Positions 27,238 to 50,908 of a stretch of 64,000 nt of DNA are shown here, in pieces. Numbering within the stretch: position 1 is the first letter of the stretch; each line of letters starts with the position of its first letter. The DNA is taken from assembly GCF_040409955.1 (NCBI RefSeq), contig NZ_CP123386.1, positions 124,001 to 188,000 on the forward strand. The letters are read 5' to 3'. The notes beneath the pieces are model-generated. The model did no database searches, was not told the origin of the DNA, and was given only the letters and a program-made list of their open reading frames with translations. This DNA comes from Salipiger sp. H15. Lineage in GTDB: Bacteria > Pseudomonadota > Alphaproteobacteria > Rhodobacterales > Rhodobacteraceae. A program made the translations under genes and the position numbers.

Positions 27238-27247
27238 TGGTATACCA
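27238..27247. promoter_or_regulatory. FCD-GntR operator-like site, tctC promoter
   Basis: TGGTATACCA, a perfect ten-base palindrome, 66 bases before tctC. It is the leftmost member of the site family found in nine promoter regions up to 50.9 kb. FadR-subfamily GntR proteins bind TNGTNNACNA-type palindromes, and UxuR/ExuR sites contain TTGGTATACCAA. Confidence 0.68.
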
Positions 27248-27312
27248 TGGTCCAACTATCCCCGGGCACTGCCGGAGGATGAATTGGGGCAGTGCATCAA
27301 TGGGAGGATTAC

Positions 27313-28293
27313 ATGAACGGATTTGCTCGGGCGGCCCTCTGCGCCGCCGCCATTGCCACGACCGGAACCGTGCTGCACGCACAGGACAGCTGCGACTGGA
27401 AACCCGACCGTGCGGTCACCTACATCGTGCCCTGGGGCGCGGGCGGCGGCACGGATGCCAACTCGCGGATGCTGGCGAGCCTTCTCGAGAAGTCCTGGGG
27501 CGTGCCGTTCAACGTGGTGAACCGCACCGGCGGGAACGGCGTCACCGGCCACTCGGCGATTTCGCGCGCCGAGCCCGACGGGTACACGGTGGGCGCGGTG
27601 ACGGTCGAGATCAACACCATGCATTGGGTCGGCCTGACCGACATGAGCTACAAGGACGTCACCCCGATCGCGCTGGTGGACATCGTTCCCGCCTCGGTTC
27701 TGGTGGGCAAGGACAGCCCCTTCAACACGGTGGCCGAACTGCTCGACCACGCCCGCGCCAACCCCGGCGAGCTGACCGGCTCGGGCACCGCGCTCGGCGG
27801 CATCTGGCACCTTGCGCTGGCGGGGATGCTGAACGCCGAGGGCATGGCCCCCGACGCGATCCGCTGGATCCCGTCGCAGGGCGCGGCCCCTGCCCTGCAG
27901 GAACTGGTCGCGGGCGGCGTCGACGTGGCGACCCCGGCGCTGTCCGAGGGCAAGACGCTGGTCGAGTCGGGCGAGGTCAAGGCGCTGGCCTACATGCACG
28001 GCAGCCCGATGGCGGCCCTGCCCGACGTGCCGCTGACCTCCGAGGCGCTGCAAAGCGGCTGGACGCTGGCGGCCTACATCACCATCTCGGGGCCGAAGGA
28101 CCTGCCGCAGAACATCGTCTGCTCCTACGAGAAGGCGGTCGCCGATGTCGTCGCCTCGCCCGAGTGGGCCGAGTTCAAGGCCAGCCGCGGCGCCGACGTG
28201 GTCAGCATGGGGGCCGCCGATCTTGCCGCCTACATGGAGCAGCAGGACGCCGCGCTCGGCGAGGTGATCCAGGCCGTCGGCCTCGCCAAGTAA
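27313..28293 (+). CDS. tctC: Tripartite tricarboxylate transporter binding protein (TctC/Bug family)
   Basis: 326-residue periplasmic binding protein with a Sec signal peptide (ALCAAAIATTGTVLHAQ, cleavage near residue 19). ITYIVPWGAGGGTD-like VTYIVPWGAGGGTDANSR and NRTGGNGVTGHSA are the hallmark TctC/Bug segments. It binds a carboxylate for TctAB. The ATG at 27313 follows GGGAGG; an earlier frame start at 27292 would spoil the signal peptide. Confidence 0.92.
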   Translation: MNGFARAALCAAAIATTGTVLHAQDSCDWKPDRAVTYIVPWGAGGGTDANSRMLASLLEKSWGVPFNVVNRTGGNGVTGHSAISRAEPDGYTVGAVTVEINTMHWVGLTDMSYKDVTPIALVDIVPASVLVGKDSPFNTVAELLDHARANPGELTGSGTALGGIWHLALAGMLNAEGMAPDAIRWIPSQGAAPALQELVAGGVDVATPALSEGKTLVESGEVKALAYMHGSPMAALPDVPLTSEALQSGWTLAAYITISGPKDLPQNIVCSYEKAVADVVASPEWAEFKASRGADVVSMGAADLAAYMEQQDAALGEVIQAVGLAK

Positions 28294-28307
28294 GCGGGCC
28301 GGGACAG

Positions 28308-28763
28308 ATGACTGCAACACGGGACATCGTGACGGGGGCGGCGCTGGTCGCCCTCGGCATCCTGATGATCTGGATCGCCTCGGGCTTTCCGCAAATCGGC
28401 GCCATGAGCTACGGGCCCGACCTCTTTCCGCGCATCATCGCCTCGGGGCTGATCCTGTCGGGCCTGGGCATCCTTCTCGAAGCCGCCCGCGGCATCGCCC
28501 CCGAAAGCGAGGGGCCGCGGCTTGCGGCGCTGCCGATCCTGATCCTGCTGGCGCTGGTGGCCGCCTTCGCGGTGCTGCTGCCGCTGCTCGGCTTCCACGT
28601 CGCGGCGGCGCTGGCGCTGCTGGTCGCGGTGCGCATCTTCGGCGGCGGCTGGACGGTCGCGGGCGCGGTGGCGATCCTCGGGCCGCTCGCGCTGCATTAC
28701 ATCTTCTACAGCGTGCTGCGCGTGCCGCTGCCCTGGGGGCTGCTGACCCCGGTGGCCTGGTAG
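28308..28763 (+). CDS. tctB: Tripartite tricarboxylate transporter small membrane protein (TctB)
   Basis: 151-residue membrane protein with four hydrophobic segments (about residues 8-26, 43-60, 74-100, 115-140). GPDLFPRIIASGL is the TctB family motif after helix one. It stabilises the TctA channel. It lies 14 bases after tctC and 10 bases before tctA. Confidence 0.9.
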   Translation: MTATRDIVTGAALVALGILMIWIASGFPQIGAMSYGPDLFPRIIASGLILSGLGILLEAARGIAPESEGPRLAALPILILLALVAAFAVLLPLLGFHVAAALALLVAVRIFGGGWTVAGAVAILGPLALHYIFYSVLRVPLPWGLLTPVAW

Positions 28764-28773
28764 GGAGGCGGCG

Positions 28774-31130: not shown

Positions 31131-31598
31131 TCAGCTTTCGGCGCGCAGCTCGACGATTGCCTCGACCTCCACCGAGATGCCGCCCGGCAGCGCCGCGACG
31201 CCGACCGAGGTGCGCGCGTGCACCCCGTCCTCGCCGAAGGCCTCGATGAACACGTCCGAGCAGCCGTCGATCACCTGCGGGATCTGCGCAAATCCCGGCG
31301 CGGCAAGCACGTAGCCATTGACCTTGACCACGTGCGAGATGCGGTTCAGGTCGCCGATCTCGGCTTGCAGATTGGCGAGCAGCGCCAGCCCGACGCGGCG
31401 CGCGCGGGCGCGGGCCTCGGCGAGGTCGATGTGCGTCCCGACCTGCCCGGTCATCGGCGTGCCCGCGTCGTCGAGCGGCGCGAGCCCCGACAGGTAGACC
31501 GCGGATCCGAGCCGCCGCGCGCCGCGGAACAGCCCCACCGGGGCCGGCGCGGCGGGCAGCTGCGCCAGAAGCGCCGCGGGGACGGGTGCCCGGCTCAT
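31131..31598 (-). CDS. RidA/YjgF-family protein
   Basis: 155-residue Rid protein. VKVNGYVL and the C-terminal HARTSVGVAALPGGISVEVEAIVEL match the family; Arg129 corresponds to the conserved carboxylate-binding Arg of imine deaminases. It may hydrolyse an enamine or imine intermediate, or an aminoacrylate-like product, of the pathway encoded around it. Co-translated with the NIPSNAP gene (ATGA overlap). Confidence 0.88.
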   Translation of the reverse strand: MSRAPVPAALLAQLPAAPAPVGLFRGARRLGSAVYLSGLAPLDDAGTPMTGQVGTHIDLAEARARARRVGLALLANLQAEIGDLNRISHVVKVNGYVLAAPGFAQIPQVIDGCSDVFIEAFGEDGVHARTSVGVAALPGGISVEVEAIVELRAES

Positions 31599-32209
31599 TG
31601 CAGGTCCGACACGGCGGTGGCGACGGCAAGTTCGGACTGCAGCGAGGTCAGCTGCGCCGAGCCGCCGGGCGGCGGCCAGATGCCTTCGCTGCTGGCCTGC
31701 TTGCGCGCCTTCACCCGGTCCTCGAGGCTGCGATAGGGCCAGATGTGGATCATCTTTGTCGGCGCGCCCTCGATGCTGCCCATGATGGTCAGCAGCGGCG
31801 ACATCTCCTCGCGGCGCGGGATCACCTTCGCCCAGGCCTCCTCGGTCTCGGGCAGGCCGCCCGGCGCGACGGTGTAGGTGCGGAACTCGTAGAACGGGCC
31901 ATAGCTGCCCGGCACGATGGGTCGCGCGAAGGAGAGCGGCTTGCAGGCCACGCGCGAGACCCCGCCGAGATGCTCGCCGATGCCGTAGGGGTCGGCGGCT
32001 TCCATCACCCGGGCGCGCTCGGCCTGCAGCGCCTCGAGCGACTCGTAGGCGGCGAGGAAGTGGAAGCGGTTGAGCTGGCCGAACTCGATCGAGAAGCAGC
32101 CGAGCATCGTGCCGGTACTGCTGAAGTTTCCGTAGACATCGCCAAGCGCGGGCATCACCGCCCCCAGCCTGTTCGGCAGAAGGGCCAGCGTCGTGAGGTC
32201 GTAGATCAT
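31595..32209 (-). CDS. NIPSNAP-family protein
   Basis: 204-residue protein with two ferredoxin-like NIPSNAP repeats: one opening with MIYDLTTLALLP, the second with YEFRTYTVAPGGLPE near residue 115. Function of bacterial NIPSNAP proteins is not well known; they occur beside monooxygenase and catabolic genes. The ATG at 32209 was chosen because family members begin MIYELRT and GGAAAG lies seven bases before it; longer in-frame starts up to 32356 lack support. An FCD-GntR-type site is 35 bases upstream. Confidence 0.85.
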   Translation of the reverse strand: MIYDLTTLALLPNRLGAVMPALGDVYGNFSSTGTMLGCFSIEFGQLNRFHFLAAYESLEALQAERARVMEAADPYGIGEHLGGVSRVACKPLSFARPIVPGSYGPFYEFRTYTVAPGGLPETEEAWAKVIPRREEMSPLLTIMGSIEGAPTKMIHIWPYRSLEDRVKARKQASSEGIWPPPGGSAQLTSLQSELAVATAVSDLQ

Positions 32210-32243
32210 GGGCATTCTTTCCGGCATTACCATTGTGTGCAGT

Positions 32244-32253
32244 TGGTATGCCA
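32244..32253. promoter_or_regulatory. FCD-GntR operator-like site, NIPSNAP-RidA promoter
   Basis: TGGTATGCCA inside TTGGTATGCCAA (32243-32254), about 35 bases upstream of the NIPSNAP start. One-base variant of the recurrent TGGTATACCA palindrome. Confidence 0.65.
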
Positions 32254-32325
32254 AAGGAAGACCATCGAGACGCCAACATTGCAAGCCCCGGCGCGACGAA
32301 TGCTGCGCGGGTGCGGGCCGGGCAT

Positions 32326-32356
32326 GAAAAATGCCCGGTGAATCATCACCGGGCAT
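32326..32356 (-). terminator. Rho-independent terminator of GntR regulator gene
   Basis: Ten-base perfect stem ATGCCCGGTG (32331-32340) and CACCGGGCAT (32347-32356). Read on the minus strand it runs into TTTT from the A run at 32327-32330. It lies about 50 bases after the GntR stop. Confidence 0.82.
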
Positions 32357-32406
32357 TCGCGGGATCGTGGGAATGGGGGCTTCCTAAGCGGAAATCCCGA
32401 GCGATG

Positions 32407-33090
32407 TCAGCGCGTGACGCCGGTGAGCCGGTTGATGATGGCGATCTTCACCGTGGCGATGTGATCGGCCATGGCCTTCTGCGCCGCCTCGGGCGGGCCG
32501 TCGACCACGGCGTCGAGCAGCTGGCTGTTCTCCTTGTGGTCGTAGCGCGAGTCATGCGGGCTGCGATAGGCGTTGAGCACATGGGTGCGGCGACGCAGGT
32601 CGCGGATCATCCCGGCCAGCAGCTCGTTGCCCGCCGCATCGGCGATGCTTCCGTGCAGCATGTCGTCGACCCGCCAGATGTCGGCCAGCGTCGGGTCGGT
32701 CTGCTCCGCCAGCGCGGCCATCTCGGCGCGGATCCCGGCCACCCGCTCGGGCGCGAGCCGCCCCGCGGCAAGCCGCGCCGCCTCGGCCTCGAGCACCTGG
32801 CGCACGTTGAGGATCTCCATCAGCGCCTCGGTGCTGAACGGGCTGACGGTGACGCCGCGGTTGGCCTGCTTGTAGACCAGCCGCTCCGCCTCGAGCCGCC
32901 CCAGAGCCTCGCGGATCGGCGTGCGCGAGGCGTTGAGCCGCTCGGCCAGCCGCCGCTCGACGATGATGTCGCCGGGCCGCAACTCGCCGCTGATCAGGAT
33001 CTGGATGAGCTGCTCGTAGATCTGGTCGGTGAGATTCGGCTTGCTGTCCGCCGATGCCGACTCCGGGCGCTGTTTGGTGGCAATCGTCAT
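32407..33090 (-). CDS. GntR-family regulator, FCD (FadR) subfamily, copy 1
   Basis: 227-residue regulator. Residues about 20-85 form the GntR winged helix-turn-helix (LTDQIYEQLIQILISGELRP, LNASRTPIREALGRLEAE), and residues about 95-220 the all-helical FCD domain with RVDDMLHGSIADAAGN, where the metal-binding Asp/His pattern of FCD proteins falls. It lies between two transcription units carrying TGGTATACCA-like sites (NIPSNAP-RidA and the nitrilase-Rieske operon). It shares about the same length and FCD signature (RRRTH) with copy 2 at 43443; the two may bind the same sites. Confidence 0.92.
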   Translation of the reverse strand: MTIATKQRPESASADSKPNLTDQIYEQLIQILISGELRPGDIIVERRLAERLNASRTPIREALGRLEAERLVYKQANRGVTVSPFSTEALMEILNVRQVLEAEAARLAAGRLAPERVAGIRAEMAALAEQTDPTLADIWRVDDMLHGSIADAAGNELLAGMIRDLRRRTHVLNAYRSPHDSRYDHKENSQLLDAVVDGPPEAAQKAMADHIATVKIAIINRLTGVTR

Positions 33091-33289
33091 GCAGGGTCTC
33101 CTTGGCCTTGCTCCTGTCTACCGGCTGTTCGGCGAGGGCGAAAGACCATTGCGCGCCCATTGTAGACCACCTGTGTTCCTGCTGCCGACAATTCTGCCGC
33201 TTTTCCGCGCGCTCTGCCGCGCAGGGCACAAAAATTTTCACCGCGACCACAGAGAGAGGTTGAAACGGGCGAAGTTTGCGGGAAACTGA

Positions 33290-33299
33290 TGGTATACCA
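33290..33299. promoter_or_regulatory. FCD-GntR operator-like site, nitrilase-Rieske promoter
   Basis: Perfect TGGTATACCA palindrome, 45 bases before the nitrilase start and 200 bases from the divergent GntR start. A repressor bound here would control the three-gene nitrilase, Rieske oxygenase and reductase operon. Confidence 0.72.
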
Positions 33300-33343
33300 C
33301 TGGCGTACAAACGTGACGCCAACCGAGTCAGGAAAGGACTGCC

Positions 33344-34411: not shown

Positions 34412-34420
34412 GAGACGACC

Positions 34421-36750: not shown

Positions 36751-36770
36751 TAACTCCCCGACTGGCATGG

Positions 36771-39178: not shown

Positions 39179-39182
39179 GGGT

Positions 39183-39989: not shown

Positions 39990-40067
39990 TCTGTGCGGCC
40001 GGTGACCCGGCCCCCCTGTTGTGTGTGGTGAACGCGGCCCCCTGAAGGGGCCGGGCTGGTGTCTGCG

Positions 40068-40856
40068 TCAGATCGCACGGATCGCGCCGCCGTCGATGCG
40101 GATGGTGCTGCCGGTGACGTATCCGGCGGCCGCGCTGGCGAGGAAGGCGGCGACGGCGCCGAACTCGGCCGGGGTGCCGTAGCGCCCGGCGGGAATGCTC
40201 GCGGCCGAGGCGCGGGCCACCTCCTCGACGGTCTTGCCGGTCTTGGCGGCGGCGGAAGCGTCAAGCTCGGCGGTGCGGGCGGTGGCGATGCGCCCCGGCG
40301 CCAGCACGTTGACCGTGACGCCGTCGGCCGCGACCTCGCCGGCGAGCGATTTCATGAAGCCGACGAGCGAGGCGCGCAGCGCGTTCGACATCGGCAGGTG
40401 CGGGATCGGCTGGATCACCCCCGAGGAGGCGACGGTGAGCACCCTTCCCCAGCCGCGCGCCCGCATCCCCGGCACCAGCGCCAGCGTCAGGCGCAGCACC
40501 GGGTCGATCATCCTGCCGTACTGCGCTGCCATCTCCTCGGGGTCGATGGCGCTCGGCAGGCCCGGGGGCGGGCCGCCGGTATTGGCGACGAGAATGTCCA
40601 CCCGGCCGGTCTGCCGCGTCGCGGCCGCGAGCATCGCCTCGACCGCGCCGGATACCCCGAATTCCGCCGCGACCATGTCGCAGCGGGCGCGCTGGTCCCC
40701 GGGCAGCGCGGCGATCGCCGCCTGCAGCTTCTCGGCCGAGCGGGCGGCGAGGGTGACGCTGGCGCCTTCGGCCAGCAGGCTCTGCGCGATGGCCAGCCCC
40801 AGCCCCGAGCTTGCGCCGGTGACGAGGGCATGCCTGCCCGAGAGTTCGAAATCCAT
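40068..40856 (-). CDS. Atypical SDR oxidoreductase without the Tyr-Lys pair
   Basis: 262-residue SDR. The cofactor loop TGASSGLG is normal and VANTGGPPPG near residue 90 marks the subgroup called BKR-3-like. After the catalytic Ser region (TVASSGVIQP) the segment that should read Tyr-x3-Lys is PMSNALR, with Met156 and Leu160 in those places. The Asn of the usual tetrad is also replaced (IDPV). Other members of this subgroup read LSNA(L/V)R here, so it is a family trait rather than damage. Role unknown; embedded in the ABC operon, between ATPase and binding protein. ATG at 40856 chosen over a longer unsupported N-terminus. Confidence 0.85.
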   Translation of the reverse strand: MDFELSGRHALVTGASSGLGLAIAQSLLAEGASVTLAARSAEKLQAAIAALPGDQRARCDMVAAEFGVSGAVEAMLAAATRQTGRVDILVANTGGPPPGLPSAIDPEEMAAQYGRMIDPVLRLTLALVPGMRARGWGRVLTVASSGVIQPIPHLPMSNALRASLVGFMKSLAGEVAADGVTVNVLAPGRIATARTAELDASAAAKTGKTVEEVARASAASIPAGRYGTPAEFGAVAAFLASAAAGYVTGSTIRIDGGAIRAI

Positions 40857-40960
40857 GGGCCTGTCTTTCCGCCGGCGCGCGCCGGCACGTCCTGCCGGTT
40901 GCCCGGCTGTCATGGGAAACGGGGGCCGGGCGGCCCCCGCCTGGGATCAGGGCGCTGCGC

Positions 40961-41971
40961 TTACTGCGTCAGGACCGGCAGGTAGGCATCCGAGTAGATG
41001 TCAGCCGGGGTGAGGCCGGGCGTCATGCCCGAGTATTTCTCGAGCAGCGAGATGGTCAGCTCGACGTCCGACGGCGCGACCCAGCCATAGGGTTTGCCCT
41101 CGGAGGCGGCCGTGTGCTCGTATTTCTGCATCACCTTGATCTCCTGCAGGATCGCGTCGGCATCGGCGTCCGGGCGGTACTCCATGAAGATGTCGCGCGC
41201 GGCCTCGGGATCGGCGGCGACGTCGGCCTTGCCCTTCTGCAGCGCCGCGATGAAGCCCTTCACCGCGTCACCGTGCTCGGCCAGCCAGTCCTTCTTCACG
41301 ATCACCGACGAGCCGATGAGGTTCACGCCGTAATCGGCAAAGAGCAGCGGCTCCTCGATCGGGCGCTGCGCGGCAACCTTGTCGCCATCGGGGTTGGCCC
41401 AGCCGTTGATGAAGTCGACGTCGCCCTTGAGCAGCGCCACGCGGTCGGCGCCGCCGTTGATGACGATGAGTTCGACCTTGTCGAAATCGACGCCGTTGGC
41501 CTCGGCGAAGGCGCGGATCATGCCGTCCTCGAGGTTGCCCGCGTCGGTGCCGAGGCGCTTGCCCTCGATGTCCTTGGGCTCCTTGATGCCCGAGCCCTCG
41601 AGCGAGATGATCGAGGTCGGGTCCTTCTGCAGGAGCCCCGCGACCGAGATGATGTCGCGCGCGCCAGCCGCCTGCTGCGCCTGCGCCAGCGCGCCCATGC
41701 CGGCGATGCCGATGTCGAAGTCGCCGCTGCCGATCGCCTGGATCGTGCCGGTCGAGCCGTTGCCGTCGACGATCTCGACCTCGAGACCGGCCTCGGCGAA
41801 ATAGCCCTTCTCGGCGGCCATGAAGACCGGGGCATCAACGCCGCCGGCAATCCAGGCAAGGCGCAGGCGGACGTCCTGCAGGTCCGCGGCCGAGGCCAGG
41901 CCCGGCAGCGCGAGGCTGGCAAAGGCACCGACAGCGAGCGCCCTGAAGTCTATGCGAAGTTGCTTTGTCAT
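40961..41971 (-). CDS. NitT/TauT-family substrate-binding protein, copy 1
   Basis: 336-residue periplasmic protein with a Sec signal (ALAVGAFASLALPGLASA, cleavage near residue 29) and an NMT1/SsuA-like fold: RLRLAWIAGGVDAPVFMAAE, GSGDFDIGIAGMGALAQA. Ligands of this family include sulfonates, nitrate, pyrimidine fragments and aromatic acids; the ligand here is not readable. A GC hairpin (40921-40938) after the gene may favour its higher expression over the genes behind it. A TGGTATACCA site lies about 50 bases before its start. Confidence 0.9.
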   Translation of the reverse strand: MTKQLRIDFRALAVGAFASLALPGLASAADLQDVRLRLAWIAGGVDAPVFMAAEKGYFAEAGLEVEIVDGNGSTGTIQAIGSGDFDIGIAGMGALAQAQQAAGARDIISVAGLLQKDPTSIISLEGSGIKEPKDIEGKRLGTDAGNLEDGMIRAFAEANGVDFDKVELIVINGGADRVALLKGDVDFINGWANPDGDKVAAQRPIEEPLLFADYGVNLIGSSVIVKKDWLAEHGDAVKGFIAALQKGKADVAADPEAARDIFMEYRPDADADAILQEIKVMQKYEHTAASEGKPYGWVAPSDVELTISLLEKYSGMTPGLTPADIYSDAYLPVLTQ

Positions 41972-42018
41972 TGTGGTTCCCTGCTGTTTTGCGTGCCGGG
42001 TCTTTTATGGCACATTGG

Positions 42019-42028
42019 TGGTATACCA
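42019..42028. promoter_or_regulatory. FCD-GntR operator-like site, NitT/TauT operon 1
   Basis: Perfect TGGTATACCA palindrome 48 bases upstream of the binding-protein start (minus strand), between a terminator and the gene. It marks an independent, probably repressed promoter. Confidence 0.72.
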
Positions 42029-42141
42029 TCGGAATTCCCAAAACCGATTCAGATCCAGAGTTTTTGCGGGCGCGGGGGGAAAATCCGGGTCTTCGCGGCG
42101 CGGCTGCCTGAAAAGGTGGCGCTTGCCCGGCCTGCTGCCGG

Positions 42142-42169: not shown

Positions 42170-42208
42170 TGCGCGTGGTCTCTTGTCCGGTCGCCGGAAG
42201 GTGGCCGA

Positions 42209-43234
42209 TCACTCGCTGCGCAGCACGCCTGCGCGGGCAAGTTGCGCGATGGCCTTTTCCTGGACCGGGGCGAAGTCCTCGTTCTGCGCGACCGGCGTCT
42301 GCGCCAGCGCGTTCGCCGGGTAGAACTCGGCGGTCGAGTAGTAGCTGCGGTACATGTCGAAGCGGCTGCGCAGCAGGCTGTTGCCCATGCCGCGGTCCTG
42401 CCGGGCTGCCTGCAGCGCCTCGATGTCGATCATCGCCGAGCAATCCACGGTCTCTTCGGCGCTGTCCTCGTAGGCGATGCGGTTGCCGCGGAAATCGACG
42501 ATCATCGAATGCCCGCCGGTCGCCGTGTCGGAGAAGCCCGCAACCCCGGCGATGTTGGCCGAGATGAGATAGGTCATGTTCTCGAAGGCGCGGCACTGCT
42601 TGGCCATGTCGGCGATCGGGGTCAGCGGCTCGTTGTTGGGGTGCAGGATCACCTCGGCGCCGCGCAACATGAAGACGCGGGTGATCTCGGGCACGTTGAC
42701 CTCGCCGCAGGGGTAGATCGCCAGCCGGCCAAGCTCGGTGTCGGCCACCGGGAAGATGCCGTCCTCGCCATAGGCCTCGCGGTATTCGTCGAGGATGTCA
42801 TGCGGCGAAGTCCAGCTGCCGGTGTTGATCCGGCGGTAGCGCAGGATCACCTCGCCCTTGGGGTCGAGCAGGAAGGACGAGTTGAAGTAGCGGTCGGGCC
42901 ATTTCGGATCGACCTCGAAATGGTTGCCCGCGATGTAGATGCCGAACTCGCGGCAGAGGTCCGCCAGCGTCTCGGTGATCGCGCCGGGAATGGTGGTGCA
43001 GGCGCGCTCGATCCAGTCGGCCACGGCGGTGGCGCGCTGCGGGCCGGTGAAGACGAACTCCGGCAGCACCACCAGCTTCGGCGGCGTCGGCCCCTCGCAG
43101 GCCGCGCGGATCTTGCTCAGCGCGTTGGCGATATTGCCGTTGATGATCTCCCATGCCGCCTCTTTCGAGGATGCGTTGCTGGCGATGCGGCTTTCCATCT
43201 GGATGCAGGTCGCGCGCCAAGGTGCGATGGCCAT
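42209..43234 (-). CDS. Carbon-nitrogen hydrolase (nitrilase superfamily), copy 2
   Basis: 341-residue paralogue of the protein at 33344. Glu59 (LPEF) and Cys176 (PCGEVNVPE) are conserved; the Lys position reads Arg135 (YRRIN), as in copy 1. RYFNSSFLLDPKGEVILRYRR closely follows RYFNTSFIIGPDGEIILRYRR in copy 1 apart from small changes. The ATG at 43234 follows GGGAGA; an upstream in-frame start at 43306 would run through the GntR-type site and is rejected. It is a single-gene unit with its own terminator and its own operator-like site. Confidence 0.87.
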   Translation of the reverse strand: MAIAPWRATCIQMESRIASNASSKEAAWEIINGNIANALSKIRAACEGPTPPKLVVLPEFVFTGPQRATAVADWIERACTTIPGAITETLADLCREFGIYIAGNHFEVDPKWPDRYFNSSFLLDPKGEVILRYRRINTGSWTSPHDILDEYREAYGEDGIFPVADTELGRLAIYPCGEVNVPEITRVFMLRGAEVILHPNNEPLTPIADMAKQCRAFENMTYLISANIAGVAGFSDTATGGHSMIVDFRGNRIAYEDSAEETVDCSAMIDIEALQAARQDRGMGNSLLRSRFDMYRSYYSTAEFYPANALAQTPVAQNEDFAPVQEKAIAQLARAGVLRSE

Positions 43235-43275
43235 ATGGGGTCTCCCTTTCAGGTCTGGCGTGATTGGTACGCACT

Positions 43276-43285
43276 TGGCATACCA
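43276..43285. promoter_or_regulatory. FCD-GntR operator-like site, nitrilase 2 promoter
   Basis: TGGCATACCA within TTGGCATACCAA (43275-43286), 42 bases upstream of the nitrilase 2 start and in the divergent gap to GntR copy 2. Confidence 0.7.
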
Positions 43286-43374
43286 ATGGGACACAAATTT
43301 GGTCAATCACGCAGCGCGGCGGGACTGCCATGTTTCTCGACGCTTCACAGGCTCTGCCCAATAAGGTATCACAT

Positions 43375-43384
43375 TGGTCGACCA
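43375..43384. promoter_or_regulatory. Variant GntR operator-like site before GntR copy 2
   Basis: TGGTCGACCA, a perfect palindrome with the same TGG/CCA arms but TCGA centre, 59 bases before the GntR 2 start. It fits the general TNGTNNACNA pattern and may mediate autoregulation. The GTCGAC core is common in GC-rich DNA, so this one is less certain. Confidence 0.5.
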
Positions 43385-43442
43385 CTGGGATGCAATGCCG
43401 CCGCCTGCGCCCTCATCACGCATCAAACCACGGGGAAAGCGC

Positions 43443-44135
43443 ATGGACGGAATCGACGACAGGAGCCTTCCGGCGAGTCCGCCGCAGCTCGCGCCGGTGG
43501 AGCAGAGCCTGTCCGACCAGGCCTACACGCGCATCCTCGAGATGTTGCTGGCCGGGCAGCTGGTGCCGGGCGAATCGCTGCAGGAGCGGCGGCTGGCACA
43601 GATGATGCAGATCTCGCGCACCCCGGTCCGCGAGGCGCTGTTCCGGCTCGAGGCCGAGGCGCTGATCCTGCGCGGCCCGGGCCGCAAGCTGGTGGTCAAC
43701 GACATCAGCATCGAGAGCTACGTGCGGCTGCTGGATCTTCGGAAAATCCTCGAGATGGAGGCCGCTGCCCGCGCCACCGGCCGGATCACCCCCGGGAAGC
43801 TGGCCGAGGTCGAAGCCGGGCTGGACGAGATGCTGCGGCTCGAGACGGTGAGCGCGGCGCAGCACTGGGCGGTGGACGACCTCGTGCACCACACCATCGC
43901 CGAGGCGGCGGGCAACCCGATGCTGACCCGCAGCATCCTCGACCTGCGGCGGCGCACCCACATCTTCAACACCAATCGCATCTCGCACCGCCGCCGGCCC
44001 GGCACCGAGGAGCACCTCGCCCTCATCCGCGCCGCCGCCGGGAGCGATCCCGAGCTGACGCGGCGGCTGATGGGCACCCACCTCGACCACGTGCGCAATG
44101 CCATCGTCGATTTCATCCTCGGGATCCGGCACTGA
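43443..44135 (+). CDS. GntR-family regulator, FCD (FadR) subfamily, copy 2
   Basis: 230-residue regulator. Winged helix-turn-helix at residues about 25-90 (SLSDQAYTRILEMLLAGQLV, QISRTPVREALFRLEAEA) and FCD domain at about 100-225 (WAVDDLVHHTIAEAAGNPML). Recognition-helix text SRTP(I/V)REAL(G/F)RLEAE is nearly the same as in copy 1, which supports shared DNA targets. The ATG at 43443 follows GGGGAAAG; an upstream frame start at 43374 lies inside a palindrome. An MFS exporter gene follows four bases after the stop. Confidence 0.92.
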   Translation: MDGIDDRSLPASPPQLAPVEQSLSDQAYTRILEMLLAGQLVPGESLQERRLAQMMQISRTPVREALFRLEAEALILRGPGRKLVVNDISIESYVRLLDLRKILEMEAAARATGRITPGKLAEVEAGLDEMLRLETVSAAQHWAVDDLVHHTIAEAAGNPMLTRSILDLRRRTHIFNTNRISHRRRPGTEEHLALIRAAAGSDPELTRRLMGTHLDHVRNAIVDFILGIRH

Positions 44136-44139
44136 CCCC

Positions 44140-45570
44140 ATGACCGACATGTCCACCGAAACCCCCGAGCCGACCTGCGGGCCGGGCCTGCTCGGCTTCC
44201 TCGCGCCGGGCACGCCCCGGCTGCTCTCCGCAGCGCTGCTGGCGCTCTTCGTCGCCGCGCTCGAACAGACCATCGTCGGCCCCGTTCTGCCGGACATCCT
44301 GAACCGGCTCGGCGGCGGCGCGCTGCTGGGCTGGATCGCCACCGGCTACCTCGTCGCCGCCACCGTCGCCGCCCCGCTCTACGGCGCCATCGCCGACCTG
44401 CGCGGGCGGCGGCAGGCGCTGCTCATCGCCAACGGGCTCTTCCTCGCGGGCTCGGTGCTCTGCGCGCTGGCGCCAACGCTGCCGATGCTGGTGCTGGCGC
44501 GGCTGGTGCAGGGCGCGGGGGCGGGCGGCATGGTCGCCCTGCCCTTCATCATCATCGCCGACCGCGTGCCCATGTCGAAGCGCGCGGGCTACAGCGCCTA
44601 TATCTCGACCATCTACGCAGTCGCCGGGCTGATCGGCCCGCTGCTCGGCGGGCTGGTGGCCGAGCGGCTGAGCTACACCGTGGTGTTCTGGCTCAACCTG
44701 CCCGCCTGCGCCGCCGTGTGCTGGGGCGTGATGACTGCGCTCGCCCCGCGCGCCGCCACCAAGGGGCGCCGCATCGACTGGCCGGGGGCGGGTTTCCTGC
44801 TGCTGGCCACGGTGCCGACGCTGGTGCTGATCGACGGCATCGCCGGGGCGCAGCTGCTGCCCGGCTGGGCACCGGTGCTGGCGGCGGCGGGCCTCTTCGG
44901 CTGGATCGCCTTTGGCCTGCGCATGGCGCGCGCCGGGGATCCGCTGATCCCGCTGACGGTGTTTCGCAGCCGCACGATCCTGCTCGCCGCACTGTCGCTC
45001 TCGACCTGCCAGGCGGTGAACATCGGCCTCGCGGTCTACCTGCCGCTCTACTACCACGCGGCCTTCGGCTTCTCGCCGGCGATGGCAGGCGCGGCGCTGC
45101 TGGCGCTGGTCGGAGGCATCATGATCGGCGCCTACGCGCCGCCGGTGCTGCTGCGCCGCAACCCCGCCTACAAGCCGCTGCTGGTGAGCGCGGCGCTGGC
45201 GGGCACGGCGCTGGCGGCGGGGTTCACCGCGCTCGTCGCGCTGGCCCCGACACCGGGGCCGGTGATCGCCAGCACCTTCGGGCTCGGGCTCGCCATCGGC
45301 ATGCTCTACCCGGTGTTCACGCTGGCGGTGCAGAACGACGCCGAGCCCGGACAGATGGGCGCGGCGATCGGCGTGCTGGCCTTCATGCGCTCGATCGGCG
45401 GCACGCTCGGGGTCTCGCTGATGGGGCTCGCGGCGCTGAACGCGGGCCTCGCCGGAGAGCCCGCGACCCTGCCGCTCTGGTCGCTGCCCGCCGCCGCCTG
45501 CGCGCTGATGGCCCTGGGCCTCGCGGCGAACATCCTGATGCCCGCCCGCAGGCTGAAGGGGTTCCGCTGA
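44140..45570 (+). CDS. MFS exporter, DHA2 (14-helix) family
   Basis: 476-residue membrane protein with about fourteen hydrophobic segments. ALEQTIVGPVLPDI in helix one and GAIADLRGRRQALL in the first cytoplasmic loop are DHA2/EmrB-QacA motifs; VQGAGAGGMVALPF is motif B-like. It probably exports the pathway substrate or a toxic intermediate by proton antiport. It is directly downstream of GntR copy 2 and shares its promoter. The stop codon sits in the loop of a hairpin terminator. Confidence 0.9.
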   Translation: MTDMSTETPEPTCGPGLLGFLAPGTPRLLSAALLALFVAALEQTIVGPVLPDILNRLGGGALLGWIATGYLVAATVAAPLYGAIADLRGRRQALLIANGLFLAGSVLCALAPTLPMLVLARLVQGAGAGGMVALPFIIIADRVPMSKRAGYSAYISTIYAVAGLIGPLLGGLVAERLSYTVVFWLNLPACAAVCWGVMTALAPRAATKGRRIDWPGAGFLLLATVPTLVLIDGIAGAQLLPGWAPVLAAAGLFGWIAFGLRMARAGDPLIPLTVFRSRTILLAALSLSTCQAVNIGLAVYLPLYYHAAFGFSPAMAGAALLALVGGIMIGAYAPPVLLRRNPAYKPLLVSAALAGTALAAGFTALVALAPTPGPVIASTFGLGLAIGMLYPVFTLAVQNDAEPGQMGAAIGVLAFMRSIGGTLGVSLMGLAALNAGLAGEPATLPLWSLPAAACALMALGLAANILMPARRLKGFR

Positions 45571-45580
45571 GCGGAACCCC
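45558..45580. terminator. Hairpin with the MFS stop codon in its loop
   Basis: GGGGTTCCGC (45558-45567) and GCGGAACCCC (45571-45580) form a perfect ten-base stem whose three-base loop is the TGA stop of the exporter gene. The convergent gene stops at 45588, so it can act in both directions. Confidence 0.6.
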
Positions 45581-45587
45581 CTTGGTC

Positions 45588-46523
45588 TCAGGCGGGCTCG
45601 GTCAGCGCCGCCAGCTTCGCCGCCTGCCGGGCCAGCATCCGCTCGACCTCGGCCACGGCGGCGGGCGGTAGGGCCGCGCCGGGTCGCCGCTGTGCCGCCG
45701 AGGCAATGGCGCCGCGCTTTTCCAGCACGTACTTGCGCACCGCGAGGCCGACGCCCGGCTGCTGCTCGTAGCGCACCAGCGGCATGTAGGCCTCGAAGAC
45801 ATCCGACGCGCGCTCCCACGCGCCCGCCTGTGACAGGCGCACGATGTCGCGCATCATCTCGGGGAAGCCGAAGCCGGTCATCGCGCCATCCGCGCCGCGC
45901 CGCATCTCCTCGGGCAGGAAGAGCCCGCCGTTGCCGCAGAGGATCGACACGCGCCGACGCCCCGCTGCCTCGGCCTCGCGCAGGGCGGTGATCTTGGCCA
46001 GACCCGGCCAGTCCTCGTGCTTGACCATGACGATGCTGTCATGTGCCTCGAGGATGCGGCCGAGCGAGCCCGTCGAGATCGGCACCTTGGTCGAGAGCGG
46101 GAAGTCCTGCAGCACCAGCGGCACGTCGGGGCCGAGCACCTCGACCACCTGCGCGAAATAGGCCTCGACCTGCTCGTTGGTCGCAAGCCCCATGGGCGGC
46201 GCCACCATCACACCGGCGGCGCCGAGATCCATCACCGCCTTGGACAGCTCGCCGATCGCCGCCAGCCCCGGCGCCGAGACGCCGACCACCACCGGCCTTC
46301 CCCCGGCGCGGCGGATGGTGGCGGCGGCGACCTCGCGGCTTTCGACCTGGGTCAGCTTGGGAGCTTCACCCATCATGCCGAGGATGGTCAGCCCGTCGGC
46401 GCCCTTCTCGAAGTAGAAGTCGGTCACCCGGTCGATACTCTCGCGGTCGAGCGATCCGTCCGGGGTGAAGGGGGTGACGGCGATGACGAAGACACCCTTC
46501 GTCCGGGTCGTGATGAGGCTCAT
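45588..46523 (-). CDS. DapA/NanA-family lyase or synthase
   Basis: 311-residue TIM-barrel protein of the dihydrodipicolinate synthase family. GVFVIAVTPFTPDGSLD opens the barrel; Lys168 in IVMVKHEDWPG is the Schiff-base Lys. The Tyr of the usual LYN-P motif is missing: the strand reads LVLQDFPLST. Loss of this Tyr suggests a reaction other than DapA, for example aldol cleavage or dehydration of a 2-keto acid. It follows the NitT/TauT binding protein gene in the same direction, separated by a GC hairpin (46575-46598). Confidence 0.86.
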   Translation of the reverse strand: MSLITTRTKGVFVIAVTPFTPDGSLDRESIDRVTDFYFEKGADGLTILGMMGEAPKLTQVESREVAAATIRRAGGRPVVVGVSAPGLAAIGELSKAVMDLGAAGVMVAPPMGLATNEQVEAYFAQVVEVLGPDVPLVLQDFPLSTKVPISTGSLGRILEAHDSIVMVKHEDWPGLAKITALREAEAAGRRRVSILCGNGGLFLPEEMRRGADGAMTGFGFPEMMRDIVRLSQAGAWERASDVFEAYMPLVRYEQQPGVGLAVRKYVLEKRGAIASAAQRRPGAALPPAAVAEVERMLARQAAKLAALTEPA

Positions 46524-46627
46524 GTCGGCGCTCTCCTGGAAATTCCGGCCCGGAAGCGGGCCCTTGAAACCGCACCGCCCGGCGCGGGCACCGGGCGGAA
46601 GGACGTGGCAGGGGCAGCAGGCCCGGC

Positions 46628-47620
46628 TTACTCGGCGACCTGGTAGACGACGTCCTCGGCAGTCAGCGGCTTCGACAGCGGGGTGACCTTGTCGACCACC
46701 TCGATGTTGTGCGCGACGCGGGCCATGTCGAAGTCGTAGCCGTTCTTCTCGAACACCGCGTTGTCGAAGGCGAAGGCGAGCGAGTTCGGCACCATCCGCG
46801 CCTGGCTCTCGCGCAGCGTGCCGTCCACATGGGCAACGATGGCGTCGATCGCCGCCTCGGGGTCGTCGCGGGCGGCATCGTAGGTGCATTGCACCGCCGC
46901 CTTGAAGCGCTTCACGAGGTCCGGGTTCTCGGCGATCAGCTTGTCGGAGGTGAAGATCGAGGCGTTGTAGATGTCGAGCCCGTCGCCGTAGTAGATCGCC
47001 CGCACCTTCTTGCCGGCGTTCTCGGCCAGCGCCTGGATGCCGACGACCGAGGTCACGTAGCTGGCCAGCGCGTCGATCCGGCCCTGCAGCAGCAGCCCGT
47101 TCAGGGCCGAGCCGTCCGCCGTCTCGACCTTCACCGCGTCCATGTCAGCCCCGGCCATCTCCATCCCGAGCGGCAGGAAGGAGAAGGCGGCGTTGCCCAC
47201 CGAGGTGCCGATGGTGCGGCCCTGAAGGTCGGCCAGCGTCTGGATCGGGCTGTCCTCGAGCACGGCGATCGAGGCCGGGTTCTGCGACACGATGGGCACG
47301 ATGGCCTTCACCGGGGCACCGCTCTCGGCGATGGTGCCGATGATGGTGCCAAGGTCGGTCACCGAGAAATCCGCGACGCCCGTCGCCACCTTGGTCACCG
47401 CGTCCGCCGCGCCGTAGCCGCGCGAGATGGTCACGTCGATGTCCTGATCGCTGAAGCAGCCCTGGTCGAGCCCGAGGTAATAGGCGGCCGAGATGCCCCC
47501 GGGGGTCCAGTCGAGCTGGAAGTCGACCTGGTCGGCGGCTTGCGCCGGTCCGGCGGCGGCGGTGAGGCCCGCAACTGCCCCCGCAACAAGCATCGCGCTC
47601 GGGAACTTCGTCGGCATCAT
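46628..47620 (-). CDS. NitT/TauT-family substrate-binding protein, copy 2
   Basis: 330-residue periplasmic protein with a Sec signal (AMLVAGAVAGLTAAAGPAQA, cleavage near residue 29). DFQLDWTPGGISAAYYLGLD and ATGVADFSVTDLGTIIG match the NMT1/THI5-like fold. Its transporter partners are probably the permease and ATPase at 49035-50659, on the same strand but beyond the M20 gene. AGGAG precedes the ATG. It shares an operator-like site at 47653 with the divergent M20 gene. Confidence 0.9.
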   Translation of the reverse strand: MMPTKFPSAMLVAGAVAGLTAAAGPAQAADQVDFQLDWTPGGISAAYYLGLDQGCFSDQDIDVTISRGYGAADAVTKVATGVADFSVTDLGTIIGTIAESGAPVKAIVPIVSQNPASIAVLEDSPIQTLADLQGRTIGTSVGNAAFSFLPLGMEMAGADMDAVKVETADGSALNGLLLQGRIDALASYVTSVVGIQALAENAGKKVRAIYYGDGLDIYNASIFTSDKLIAENPDLVKRFKAAVQCTYDAARDDPEAAIDAIVAHVDGTLRESQARMVPNSLAFAFDNAVFEKNGYDFDMARVAHNIEVVDKVTPLSKPLTAEDVVYQVAE

Positions 47621-47652
47621 GGAATCTCCTGTCGGTGTGGTTGGTTTGTCGT

Positions 47653-47662
47653 TGGCATACCA
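47653..47662. promoter_or_regulatory. FCD-GntR operator-like site, binding protein 2 / M20 divergon
   Basis: TGGCATACCA, with flanking T making TTGGCATACCAT, 33 bases before the binding-protein start and 86 before the M20 start. A single site could control both directions. Confidence 0.7.
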
Positions 47663-47747
47663 TTAGGATACCGATACGGTCCGACAAAGCGAATAACGCA
47701 GGATCGGGCTGCTTCAGCCCCAGGGACCCAACCGGAGAGGAAAAATC

Positions 47748-48953
47748 ATGCAGATGGAAAAGGTCTTTGCCGCCTTCGAGGCGCGGCAGGATGAAATGGT
47801 GGCGCTGCGGCGCGACATCCACATGCATCCCGAGACCTCCTACGAGGAGGTCCGCACCTCGGCGCTGGTCAGTCAGAAGCTGGACGCGTGGGGAATCGAG
47901 AACCACGCCGGCCTTGCCGGCACCGGCGTCGTGGCGGTGATCCGTGGCCGCCTGCCCGGCAACCGCGCCGTCGGCCTGCGTGCGGACATGGACGCGCTCA
48001 ACATGGACGAGACCAACACCTTCGGTCACCGCTCGACCATCCCCGGCAAGTTCCACGGCTGCGGCCATGACGGGCACACCACCATGCTGCTCAATGCCGC
48101 GCGCTACCTGTCCGAGAACCCCGATTTCGGCGGCACTGTTCATTGCATCTTCCAGCCCGCCGAGGAGGGCGGCGCGGGCGGGCTGCGGATGATCGAGGAA
48201 GGGCTCTTCGAGAAGTTCCCCTGCGACGCGGTCTATTCGCTGCACAACAAGCCCGGCATCCCGGTCGGCAAGTTCATCACCCGGGTCGGCGGCCAGCTTG
48301 CCTGCGCCGACCAGTGGACCGTCACCTTCAACGGCACCGGCGGCCACGCCGGCGCGCCGGAGAAGGGCATCGACCTGATGACCGCGCTGGCGCATTTCAT
48401 CCTCGGCATCCAGGGCATTGTCGCGCGCAACGTGGTGGCGCAGGACTCCGCCGTGCTCACCATCGGCATGATCGAGGCGGGCACCTCGCACAACGTCATG
48501 CCGGCGCAGATCGTGGTCACCGGCACCGCCCGCTGCCACAACCCCGAGGTGCGCGACCTGCTCGAGAAGCGGCTGGCCGAGGTGGCGGACAGCGCCGCCG
48601 CCATGTGCCTTGCCAGCGCCGTGACCGACTACCAGCGCGGCTACCCGCCGCTGGTCAACGCCCGGGCCGAGACCGACAAGGCCGTGGCCGCTGCCGCCGC
48701 GGTGAACGGGATCGAGAATGTCGACCCGAACTCGCCGCCGATCAACGCCGCCGACGATTTCGCCTACATGGCCATCGCGCGGCCGGGCTGCAACGTGATG
48801 ATGGGCAATGGCGACGGGCCGGAGTGGAAGAACAACCACCGGCCGGACTACGATTTCAACGACGCGGCGATCCCCTACGGCTCGGCCTACTGGGTCTCGG
48901 TGGTGAACCAGGAGCTCGGGCAAGGTGTTGAGGCGCAGCAGGCGGTGGCCTGA
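47748..48953 (+). CDS. M20-family amidohydrolase (hippurate-hydrolase-like)
   Basis: 401-residue zinc-dependent amidohydrolase. GLRADMDALNMDE, HGCGHDGHTTML (Cys105, His107) and FQPAEEGGAGG (Glu139/Glu140) are the metal and catalytic motifs, and NGTGGHAGAPEKGID marks the dimerisation domain boundary. Such enzymes cleave N-acyl or N-carbamoyl amino acids, hippurate or IAA-amino acid conjugates. It may release an amine or amino acid from the compound imported by the adjacent ABC system. A strong terminator follows. Confidence 0.92.
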   Translation: MQMEKVFAAFEARQDEMVALRRDIHMHPETSYEEVRTSALVSQKLDAWGIENHAGLAGTGVVAVIRGRLPGNRAVGLRADMDALNMDETNTFGHRSTIPGKFHGCGHDGHTTMLLNAARYLSENPDFGGTVHCIFQPAEEGGAGGLRMIEEGLFEKFPCDAVYSLHNKPGIPVGKFITRVGGQLACADQWTVTFNGTGGHAGAPEKGIDLMTALAHFILGIQGIVARNVVAQDSAVLTIGMIEAGTSHNVMPAQIVVTGTARCHNPEVRDLLEKRLAEVADSAAAMCLASAVTDYQRGYPPLVNARAETDKAVAAAAAVNGIENVDPNSPPINAADDFAYMAIARPGCNVMMGNGDGPEWKNNHRPDYDFNDAAIPYGSAYWVSVVNQELGQGVEAQQAVA

Positions 48954-48974
48954 GCGCCCACTGCGCGACATGAC

Positions 48975-49006
48975 AAAGGCCGGCGGGGACGCCGGCCTTT
49001 TCGCTT
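48975..49006 (+). terminator. Rho-independent terminator of the M20 gene
   Basis: AAAGGCCGGC (48975-48984) and GCCGGCCTTT (48991-49000) with six-base loop, followed by TCGCTTTT. It lies 22 bases after the M20 stop and faces the end of the convergent ABC operon. Confidence 0.85.
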
Positions 49007-49034
49007 TTCCCGGAAGTCTTGCGGCAGGTGCCGC

Positions 49035-49802
49035 TCACTCGCCGGCCTTGGTCTTGATCGACCAGCCGAAGAACGCCCGGTGCGCCCAGTTCACCGCCTC
49101 GTAGAGCGCCACCGAGATCACCGCGAGGATCACCACGCAGGCGGTCGCGGTGGGGATGGCGAATTGCGCCGTCGACGAGGTGACGAGGAAGCCCAGCCCC
49201 TTGTTGGCATTGACGAATTCCGCCACCACCGCGCCCACCACGGCGACGGTCACGCCGATCCGCAGCCCGCTGAAGATGAAGGGGATGGCGCTCGGCAGGC
49301 GCACGCTCAGGATCTCGCCCATGCGCGAGGCGCCGGCGACGCGCGCCAGATCCAGCATCTCCTTCGGCGTGTCCATCATCCCGGCGGCGGTGTTGACCAT
49401 GATCGGGAAGAAGCAGGTGAGCGTCACGATGATCAGCCGCGTCGTCATGTCGGTGCCGAAGATCACCACGAGGATCGGCGCGATGGCGATGATCGGGATG
49501 GCGTTGAGGAAGACGATCAGCGGGTAGATCATCTCGGACACGGTGCGGTTGACCGAGACCACAACCCCGAGCGGGATGCCCACCACGCAGGCGCAGAGGA
49601 ACCCGAGCAGGATGGTCTTCATCGTCTCGACCGTGTTGCTGAGGATCGCCGGGCCGAGCTTGCCGCCGCCCTCGACGATGTCGAGCGGCGAGGGCAGCAG
49701 GTAGACCGGGATGTCGAGCGCGTCGCTCAGCAGCTGCCAGCCGAGCAGGAAGGCCAGGAAGGTGCCGACGGGCAGGACGATCTTTCTCAGGGCGGGGCTC
49801 AT
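49035..49802 (-). CDS. NitT/TauT-family ABC transporter permease, copy 2
   Basis: 255-residue permease with six membrane segments. The EAA loop is LARVAGASRMGEILSVRLPSAIPF, and NANKGLGFLV parallels ADKGLGYLI in copy 1, so the two systems are related. Start overlaps the ATPase stop (ATGA). Confidence 0.92.
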   Translation of the reverse strand: MSPALRKIVLPVGTFLAFLLGWQLLSDALDIPVYLLPSPLDIVEGGGKLGPAILSNTVETMKTILLGFLCACVVGIPLGVVVSVNRTVSEMIYPLIVFLNAIPIIAIAPILVVIFGTDMTTRLIIVTLTCFFPIMVNTAAGMMDTPKEMLDLARVAGASRMGEILSVRLPSAIPFIFSGLRIGVTVAVVGAVVAEFVNANKGLGFLVTSSTAQFAIPTATACVVILAVISVALYEAVNWAHRAFFGWSIKTKAGE

Positions 49803-50659
49803 GCGCGGCGTCCTTTGCGGCCGGTGCGGGGTCCGAAGATGTCGTCGCGGATGCGCTGCGACAGGGCGAGGAAATCGGGACGCGCGGCGCTGTCCGCCCC
49901 GCGCGGCTTGGGCACGTCGATCTCGACCAGATCCTGCATCCGTCCGGGCCGCGCCGACATCACCGCCACGCGGTCCGACAGCAGCACCGCCTCGCCTATC
50001 GAATGGGTGACCAGCAGGATCGTCTTGCGGGTTTCGGCGTGGATATCGAGCAGGTCGAGTTGCAGGTCCTCGCGGGTCAGCGCGTCGAGCGCGCCGAAGG
50101 GTTCGTCCATCAGCAGGATCTTCGGGTCGAGGATCAGGCTGCGGGCAATCGACGCCCGCTGCTGCATCCCGCCCGAGAGCTCGTGCGGCATCCGCTCGGC
50201 CATGTCCTGCAGACCCACCAGCGCCAGCAGTTCCATCGCTCTCGCGCGGTGGGCCTTGGTCGGGCGCTGCAGCACCTTCACCGGGTAGAGCACGTTGTCC
50301 ATCACGTTCAGCCAGGGCAGCAGGGTCGGCCGCTGGAAGACGATGGCCACCTCGGAAAAGCCCCGGCGCGCCTTGCCGCCGCCGATCCAGATGTCGCCGG
50401 TGCTGGGCTGCTGCAACCCGGCCAGCATGCGCAGCACCGTGGACTTGCCGCAGCCCGAGGGACCGACCAGCGAAACGATCTCCTCGCGGTAGATGGTCAG
50501 GTTCATGTCCTCGACCGCCACCAGCGGATCGCCCTTGGCCGTCGCGAAGGTCACGCCGGCATGGGCCAGCTCGATGATCGGCTCGCGGCGCTCCGGTTCC
50601 GGGGCCCCGGGCGTCTGCGCCGCGCTCTGCGCCGCCTGCACCGGCGTTGCGTGGATCAT
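49799..50659 (-). CDS. NitT/TauT-family ABC transporter ATPase, copy 2
   Basis: 286-residue ABC ATPase. Walker A GPSGCGKST, FQRP Q-loop, signature LSGGMQQRA, Walker B ILLMDEPFGALD and VTHSIGEAV are intact. The ATG at 50659 follows GGAGACGACGAC; a start at 50797 would read through the operator-like site and is rejected. The first 25 residues before the ABC fold are Ala/Pro-rich. Promoter carries a TGGCATACCA site. Confidence 0.92.
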   Translation of the reverse strand: MIHATPVQAAQSAAQTPGAPEPERREPIIELAHAGVTFATAKGDPLVAVEDMNLTIYREEIVSLVGPSGCGKSTVLRMLAGLQQPSTGDIWIGGGKARRGFSEVAIVFQRPTLLPWLNVMDNVLYPVKVLQRPTKAHRARAMELLALVGLQDMAERMPHELSGGMQQRASIARSLILDPKILLMDEPFGALDALTREDLQLDLLDIHAETRKTILLVTHSIGEAVLLSDRVAVMSARPGRMQDLVEIDVPKPRGADSAARPDFLALSQRIRDDIFGPRTGRKGRRA

Positions 50660-50713
50660 GTCGTCGTCTCCTTTTGCACCGCGCGCCACCACCGCGGCCT
50701 GCGTTTGCAGCGA

Positions 50714-50723
50714 TGGCATACCA
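50714..50723. promoter_or_regulatory. FCD-GntR operator-like site, NitT/TauT operon 2
   Basis: TGGCATACCA followed by AAAG, 55 bases upstream of the ATPase start on the minus strand. Same sequence as the sites at 43276 and 47653. Confidence 0.7.
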
Positions 50724-50890
50724 AAGGAACACCAAGCGCCAGAGCTGGCGCGCCACAGCCCTGCCGCTTCGTCATCCGGCGCTGAAATCTTGTGCATTCA
50801 GGCGCTCGAAGCTGGCTCCCTGCCTCCGAAACCGCCCCGAATTTCCGTATCCGCACGCCGCGACTTGCCGAATATCCCGAATCTGGCATT

Positions 50891-50908
50891 CCAATTGTCG
50901 ACCATTGG
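50891..50908. promoter_or_regulatory. Variant GntR operator-like site, SDR pair promoter
   Basis: CCAAT and ATTGG form inverted arms (50891-50895, 50904-50908) around TGTCGACC; the inner TTGTCGACCA is one base from the TGGTCGACCA before GntR copy 2. It is about 20 bases before the SDR start. Confidence 0.5.

Follow-up and report, generated by a model that had tools for sequence, protein, structure and literature searches.

Does a short palindrome that recurs in front of neighbouring operons of Salipiger sp. H15 mark the operators of one regulon and, if so, how long is the operator, how far does the regulon reach and which regulator would bind it? The question is raised by a 64,000-nucleotide stretch of contig NZ_CP123386.1 (positions 124,001 to 188,000, C3:124001-188000 in genome numbering; the window hereafter), in which the palindrome TGGYATRCCA lies upstream of several genes and two GntR regulators of the FCD type, GntR1 and GntR2, are encoded. 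According to the present analysis, the eight sites from 32244 to 50895 are very likely operators of one local regulon (31131-52279), which would be bound by GntR1, GntR2 or both. The comparisons support a regulon that coincides with a conserved island of 21 kb at 31.13-52.28 kb, and judging from its sequence this island is very probably one co-regulated unit.

The seven copies of TGGYATRCCA named in the original prediction were all found (starts at 27238, 32244, 33290, 42019, 43276, 47653, and 50714), compared with a mean of 0.11 in dinucleotide shuffles, and none of 100 shuffles reached seven. The proposed check of site density elsewhere in the genome came out in the same direction: the 10-mer occurs 16 times in 6.1 Mb (seven contigs), its reversed control once, and seven of the 16 copies fall within 23.5 kb of the window, six of them inside the conserved island. 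The predicted variant TGGTCGACCA is present exactly at 43375 and with one mismatch at 50895. Allowing one mismatch, it has nine matches in the window (one exact and eight with one mismatch, 50895 included) versus 1.79 expected, but the seven further one-mismatch copies make it a weak marker when taken alone. All nine sites are intergenic and lie 23-66 bp from the nearest start codon by our own gene calls, which bears out the claim that they stand 20-90 bases before starts and outside genes.

The predicted operator was the 10-bp palindrome itself. The palindrome is real, but the operator appears to be longer, about 31 bp, approximately TGG-N8-TGGYATRCCA-N8-CCA, with elements 11 bp to the sides that form a phased array. 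In the alignment of the eight island sites, from which 27238 was left out as in the box scores, TGG 11 bp before the core was matched by 18 of 24 letters (mean over all left offsets tried, 6.8), TGG 11 bp after the core by 20 of 24, and CCA 18 bp after the core by 19 of 24. The four-box half-site score at a spacing of 11 was 67/96, the runner-up among 21 spacings being 39, and the three-box total of 57/72 was matched in none of 200,000 random draws of letters from the same flanks. The same peaks were obtained from 18 sites of the window, Pseudooceanicola, Tropicimonas, and Rhizobium, again without 27238. Two operators, at 33290 and 50895, hold three phased copies each, and the cores at island operators are of the types TGGYATRCCA, TGGTCGACCA, or TTGTCGACCA. 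Counted in one orientation, the eight island sites have 5-9 of the nine box letters, the nine other exact-core sites of the genome 0-4, and 27238 has five. A sigma-54 promoter, considered as the source of the TGG-TGG spacing, was ruled out, as the spacing is 11 and the element palindromic. Searching 394 family genomes with the extended pattern TGGYATACCANNGGNANNC gave three matches in the H15 genome and one each in five others, no more than its reversed control, and revealed no new carrier.

Presence and absence within the genus connect the extended operator with the two regulators. Among 20 genus genomes surveyed at E 1e-40, three have GntR1/GntR2 matches, each with both genes; at up to one mismatch, the extended operator has four, three, and three matches in these genomes and one single match in the remaining 17. 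The count of the 10-mer was ruled out as a marker of the regulators by overlapping copy numbers (4 to 18 copies in the 17 genomes without GntR1/GntR2; 16, 21, and 16 in the three with them). Nucleotide alignments place window positions 31147-52284 in the congener G1079 in four pieces (88-92% identity) and 31138-52208 in the congener G1085 in five pieces (80-90%), with a sixth G1085 piece (75%) that joins the two transporter ATPase genes; the gaps are located chiefly at 36.75-38.36 kb, among transposase pieces of the window. Both matches end at RidA on the left, with 14 kb (G1079) and 1.6 kb (G1085) more of contig; on the right, the G1085 match ends after the two SDR genes, 17 kb short of the contig end, and the G1079 contig itself ends there. 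All eight operator cores are identical in G1079 and all but one in G1085 (one change at 42019), the right-hand extension is mostly kept in both, and the footprint is sharpest at 32244, 33290, 42019, and 50714.

Beyond the genus, the island gene order is kept in Pseudooceanicola sp. HF7 and, inverted, in Tropicimonas marinistellae, both with the two GntR genes. Rhizobium sp. S152 has a partial island, also with both; the stretch compared showed no match to the M20 gene, the second binding protein and ABC pair, or the MFS gene. Scanning these islands at a threshold of 13 with matrix A, derived from the window's eight sites, gave sites in six of six matching promoter regions in Pseudooceanicola, six of six in Tropicimonas, and five of five in Rhizobium, including four, three, and three matches, respectively, without an exact TGGYATRCCA. 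Pseudooceanicola has eight sites in the places of the window's eight, double sites included (likewise two between nit2 and GntR2), the weakest being 10300 with 13.7. The counterparts of operator 1 are at Pseudooceanicola L147:1260, Tropicimonas 30762 (L149+L150), and Rhizobium 24123 (L152+L153), and other matches in those islands are few, e.g., Pseudooceanicola 34944 (14.2) and Rhizobium 10318 (13.3). Reciprocally, matrix B, built from ten exact-core sites of the three other genera and run on the window (better strand), scored the eight sites 22.7-36.8; apart from 27238 (23.5) and 11-bp-shifted copies, the window maximum was 16.1, and in 105,526 bases of other stretches of the same genome the best score was 21.7, at an exact-core site. 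With flanks alone, the eight sites scored 6.8-19.3, 27238 scored 4.5, and nine non-island genome sites at most 2.6. Near the GntR1 start, TTGTAGACCA at 33160 (score 16.1) is a possible weak extra site that was not counted among the operators; its 10-mer is present near the same place in G1079 and absent from the G1085 stretch compared.

GntR1 homologues were collected as 80 listed loci, of which L049, L050, L101, L051, and L062 were inspected for sites; among those listed, the first three hold orthologues of at least 64%, and L051 and L062 stand at 40% and 38%. Among the matches listed, GntR1 and GntR2 orthologues were paired for at least 13 of 30 GntR1 clusters on contigs of at least 30 kb (including Alloyangia, Oricola, Celeribacter, Devosia, and Rhizobium), as counted by hand from protein-database lists with a shared contig deduced from equal longest-contig size. 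Kaistia genomes also carry these regulators. The island is rare in the samples searched: GntR1 orthologues were confined to H15 among 385 genomes of the class (E 1e-55), GntR2 gave nothing above 41% identity outside H15 among 198 genomes of the family, and GntR1 returned the starting genome only among 297 genomes of the Rhizobium family (E 1e-50). Close relatives of nit2 or GntR1 were not found in the plasmid collection.

Both regulators contain a GntR winged helix-turn-helix (HTH; PF00392) and an FCD domain (PF07729), each above cut-off. They are 38-39% identical, each being the other's strongest match in the genome, and are diverged paralogues linked across Rhodobacterales and Rhizobiales. 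Their shared recognition helix had been offered as an argument for common sites; this argument proved weak, as SRTP occurs in 12 of 34 GntR matches of the genome (two gave no alignment), but these two alone among the 34 combine E-R with SRTP[IV]REALxRLEAE (two without an HTH alignment). The base-contact residues of FadR (E34-R35, T44/S-R45-T46, R49) are matched by ERR and SRTP-R in GntR1 and GntR2, with positions assigned by eye from Table 1 of PMC4494728. An arginine there is associated with G in TKGT according to the parts of that study consulted (PMC4494728), in agreement with the TGGT of the core. Palindromic operators of the form TKGT-N2/3-ACMA stand beside both the regulator genes and the targets, the arrangement that defines an FCD-GntR regulon.

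These features suggest how the island might be controlled. GntR1 and/or GntR2 on the operators would repress the operons and both regulator genes, and a pathway compound binding the FCD domain would lift the repression. Repression is most likely because one or two operators lie 23-59 bp before the start codon in all six promoter regions (operons as read), the two gntR regions included. Operators before all operons, regulator genes among them, are the usual layout for an autoregulated local repressor, and operator 2 likely serves autoregulation of GntR1. Since 11 bp is about one helical turn, the phase would make adjacent elements face the same side of the DNA, which suggests dimers side by side and possibly cooperative binding. 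A further idea, doubtful in our view, is that GntR1 and GntR2 act jointly as mixed or alternating dimers on the 11-bp arrays, so that opening of the island would require the sensing of two different compounds of the pathway.

How far the regulon reaches depends on the site at 27238. In the original prediction, nine sites spread over 24 kb made up a single regulon, the operator was the 10-bp palindrome, and tctCBA-aldolase was included. Its central idea, a shared operator for one cluster linked to the two FCD-GntR genes, draws good support from the footprints in other genera, the reciprocal matrices, and the distribution within the genus, but the limits are 31.1-52.3 kb and tctCBA-aldolase is probably outside, which makes the nine-site version unlikely. 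The site at 27238 does have a perfect core near the island, its total score is within the range of the eight, and its half-site count (5/9) equals that of 50714; its flank score is below all eight. Close TctC orthologues occur in two other genus genomes, G1084 and G1081, and not in G1079 and G1085, which carry the island. TGGTATACCA is kept before tctC in both, neither of which has a GntR1/GntR2 match; 27238 is thus probably the site of a different regulator, which may be an FCD protein. In G1081 the flanks of this site are unmatched (score -6.7). Moreover, no tct match was seen in the Pseudooceanicola, Tropicimonas, and Rhizobium stretches, of which only that of Tropicimonas reaches several kb past RidA. 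Directly beside 27238, between a lacI gene and tctC, lies a LacI-type palindrome, AGTCAAACGATTGACT (27217-27238), conserved in G1084 and variant in G1081. Elsewhere, TGGTATACCA forms a second cluster at C1:1775532, 1786807, and 1791925 (L156, L157), with CATT before all three, among genes with 3-hydroxyisobutyrate-dehydrogenase-like, SBD_N/NBD_C kinase, and xylose-isomerase-like domains, a set of sugar-acid type. Similarly spaced core groups occur in the congeners G1079 and G1080, and C1:2907336 has the same core before a related aldolase, judged from the first residues read off the sequence.

Could the sites be bound by a different member of the 34 GntR matches, one encoded elsewhere, the two local GntR proteins acting on other targets? 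Two other FCD-GntR-like genes do have TGGTATACCA about 60 bp upstream (C1:1974041 and C4:318482), probably as autoregulatory sites; these lack the phased extension, and the core alone does not discriminate between regulators. The extended operator and the GntR1/GntR2 pair co-occur or are jointly missing within the genus, however, and in Pseudooceanicola, Tropicimonas, and Rhizobium each GntR gene is separated from its divergent neighbour by a region that carries sites, which leaves an outside regulator quite improbable. That the sites are a mobile or structural repeat of the island rather than protein operators would agree with their clustered, intergenic distribution, but they differ among themselves and hold their positions across genera, and the TGGT-N2-ACCA core fits the FadR-subfamily consensus in the parts of PMC4494728 consulted; we regard such a repeat as hardly credible.

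Several observations weigh against reading the eight sites as operators of the local pair. The 10-mer core alone is not specific, with nine further places in the genome and copies in every regulator-less congener; total scores are narrow at the low end, where the weakest of the eight (22.7), 27238, and the best non-island exact core lie close together, and flank scores are modest at 50714 (6.8) and 33290 (7.0). Co-occurrence does not separate GntR1 from GntR2. In loci of 2.2-3.6 kb, an exact core was present for only one of 10 distant relatives from nine genomes, that in G040 (41%), where it precedes the matched stretch by about 130 bp. For the Stella relative (40%), TGGTATACCA stands some 200 bp upstream; the locus examined for the Azospirillum picis relative contains no exact TGGYATRCCA. 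The right element at 50895 is lost in G1085, and much of the wider spacer is conserved at 43276, 43375, and 47653, so that the footprint is less informative there. The half-site boxes were picked after the alignment had been viewed, which makes the spacing scan the safer control, and a promoter scan performed at chance level (3 found, 1.7 expected).

Compared with known systems, the island operators resemble those of FadR-subfamily regulons, in which, according to the sections consulted (Suvorova et al. 2015, PMC4494728), TGGT-N2-ACCA palindromes occur next to the regulator gene, as single or double sites of a divergent promoter region. Additional, weaker half-sites, whose function was left open, flank the palindrome in 13 groups at 7-12 nt from the site centre; such half-sites flank it in the island too, but here they hold an 11-bp phase (5-9 of nine box letters), the distance from the centre to the outermost box is 14.5 bp, and a pair of paralogous regulators shares one island. 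Those sections do not name the island regulon. As far as consulted (PMC8012715), the work on Escherichia coli NanR describes a (GGTATA)3 operator on which neighbouring dimers of a single regulator bind cooperatively at a defined spacing, a property mapped to a 32-residue N-terminal extension. The island shares with NanR an FCD-GntR regulator and several phased elements; its elements, in contrast, are palindromic, repeat at 11 bp, and mostly lack GGTATA outside the core, and only 19 residues (GntR1) or 22 from the ATG (GntR2) precede the Pfam HTH. Extra half-sites beside GntR palindromes have thus been described, at least in the parts of PMC4494728 consulted, and FCD regulons are common; the island is a new and unusually clear case, well conserved enough for asking what the extra half-sites do. 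Literature searches with the exact strings TGGTATACCA, TGGCATACCA, TGGYATACCA, TGGNATACCA, and TGGTATGCCA showed no such regulon among the papers listed, judged by title and the start of the abstract.

Coordinates of the operators and genes of the island and of the tctC site (window numbering)
Feature	Position	Strand	Remarks
tctC site	27238..27247	no strand	TGGTATACCA; before tctC, same core, outside island
NIPSNAP + RidA-like genes	31131..32209	-	RidA start not settled
Operator 1	32233..32264	no strand	core 32244-32253; before NIPSNAP-RidA
GntR1	32407..33090	-	GntR-FCD regulator, 227 aa; Pfam PF00392 + PF07729
Operator 2	33290..33321	no strand	core 33290-33299, phased copies 33301, 33312; between GntR1 and nit1
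Nitrilase-superfamily hydrolase 1 (nit1)	33344-34411	+	
Rieske oxygenase	34421-35755	+	
Ferredoxin reductase-like gene	35752-36750	+	
ABC permease, ATPase, SDR, NMT1-type binding protein	38360..41971	-	
Operator 3	42008..42039	no strand	core 42019-42028; before binding protein-SDR-ATPase-permease operon
Nitrilase-superfamily hydrolase 2 (nit2)	42209..43234	-	
Operator 4	43265..43296	no strand	core 43276-43285; before nit2
Operator 5	43364..43395	no strand	core TGGTCGACCA 43375-43384; before GntR2
GntR2	43443..44135	+	GntR-FCD regulator, 230 aa from ATG
MFS transporter	44098..45570	+	overlaps GntR2 end
DHDPS-family gene + second NMT1-type binding protein	45588..47620	-	DHDPS start estimated
Operator 6	47642..47673	no strand	core 47653-47662; between second binding protein and M20 gene
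M20 amidohydrolase	47748..48953	+	nearest solved structure: IAA-amino-acid-hydrolase homologue
Second ABC permease + ATPase	48950..50658	-	
Operator 7	50714..50734	no strand	core 50714-50723 + right element; before second ATPase-permease pair; weakest flanks among the eight
Operator 8	50884..50915	no strand	phased copies 50884, 50895, 50906; before SDR pair
Two SDR genes	50927..52279	+	right end of conserved island

The gene content (a Rieske oxygenase with its reductase, two nitrilase-superfamily hydrolases, M20, a DHDPS-type gene, three SDRs, NIPSNAP, RidA, two ABC systems, and an MFS transporter) points to catabolism of a nitrogen-containing, perhaps aromatic compound. The second ABC permease was called from similarity to Pseudooceanicola and Tropicimonas stretches that also match the first permease; Pfam found nothing in the frame read. 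The top solved-structure match of the Rieske oxygenase is named putative phthalate 4,5-dioxygenase (7fhr), and clusters of that type likewise pair a Rieske oxygenase with a ferredoxin reductase-like gene; the island differs from them by adding two nitrilase-superfamily hydrolases, M20, DHDPS, NIPSNAP, RidA, and two NMT1-type ABC systems. No matching gene cluster surfaced in literature searches. Homarine, considered as the substrate, was not adopted; a literature search with the terms used gave no paper on it. Placing some 20 genes in a single regulon under a defined operator predicts that they form one pathway and offers, for a search for its substrate, a bait (the operator DNA) and a readout.

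Between the reductase and ABC permease genes, transposase-like open reading frames at 36828-37636 (Pfam match on 36828-37217) have no counterpart in the congener islands. Tropicimonas (L150:9317-10747) and Rhizobium (22725-24074 of L152+L153) have an amidohydrolase gene between GntR1 and NIPSNAP that is not at that place in the window. The Tropicimonas protein is hydantoinase-like, its best NCBIfam match being ErtD, below cut-off, and the Rhizobium one was judged similar by eye; the presence of a hydantoinase-like amidohydrolase in these islands is a clue to the substrate.

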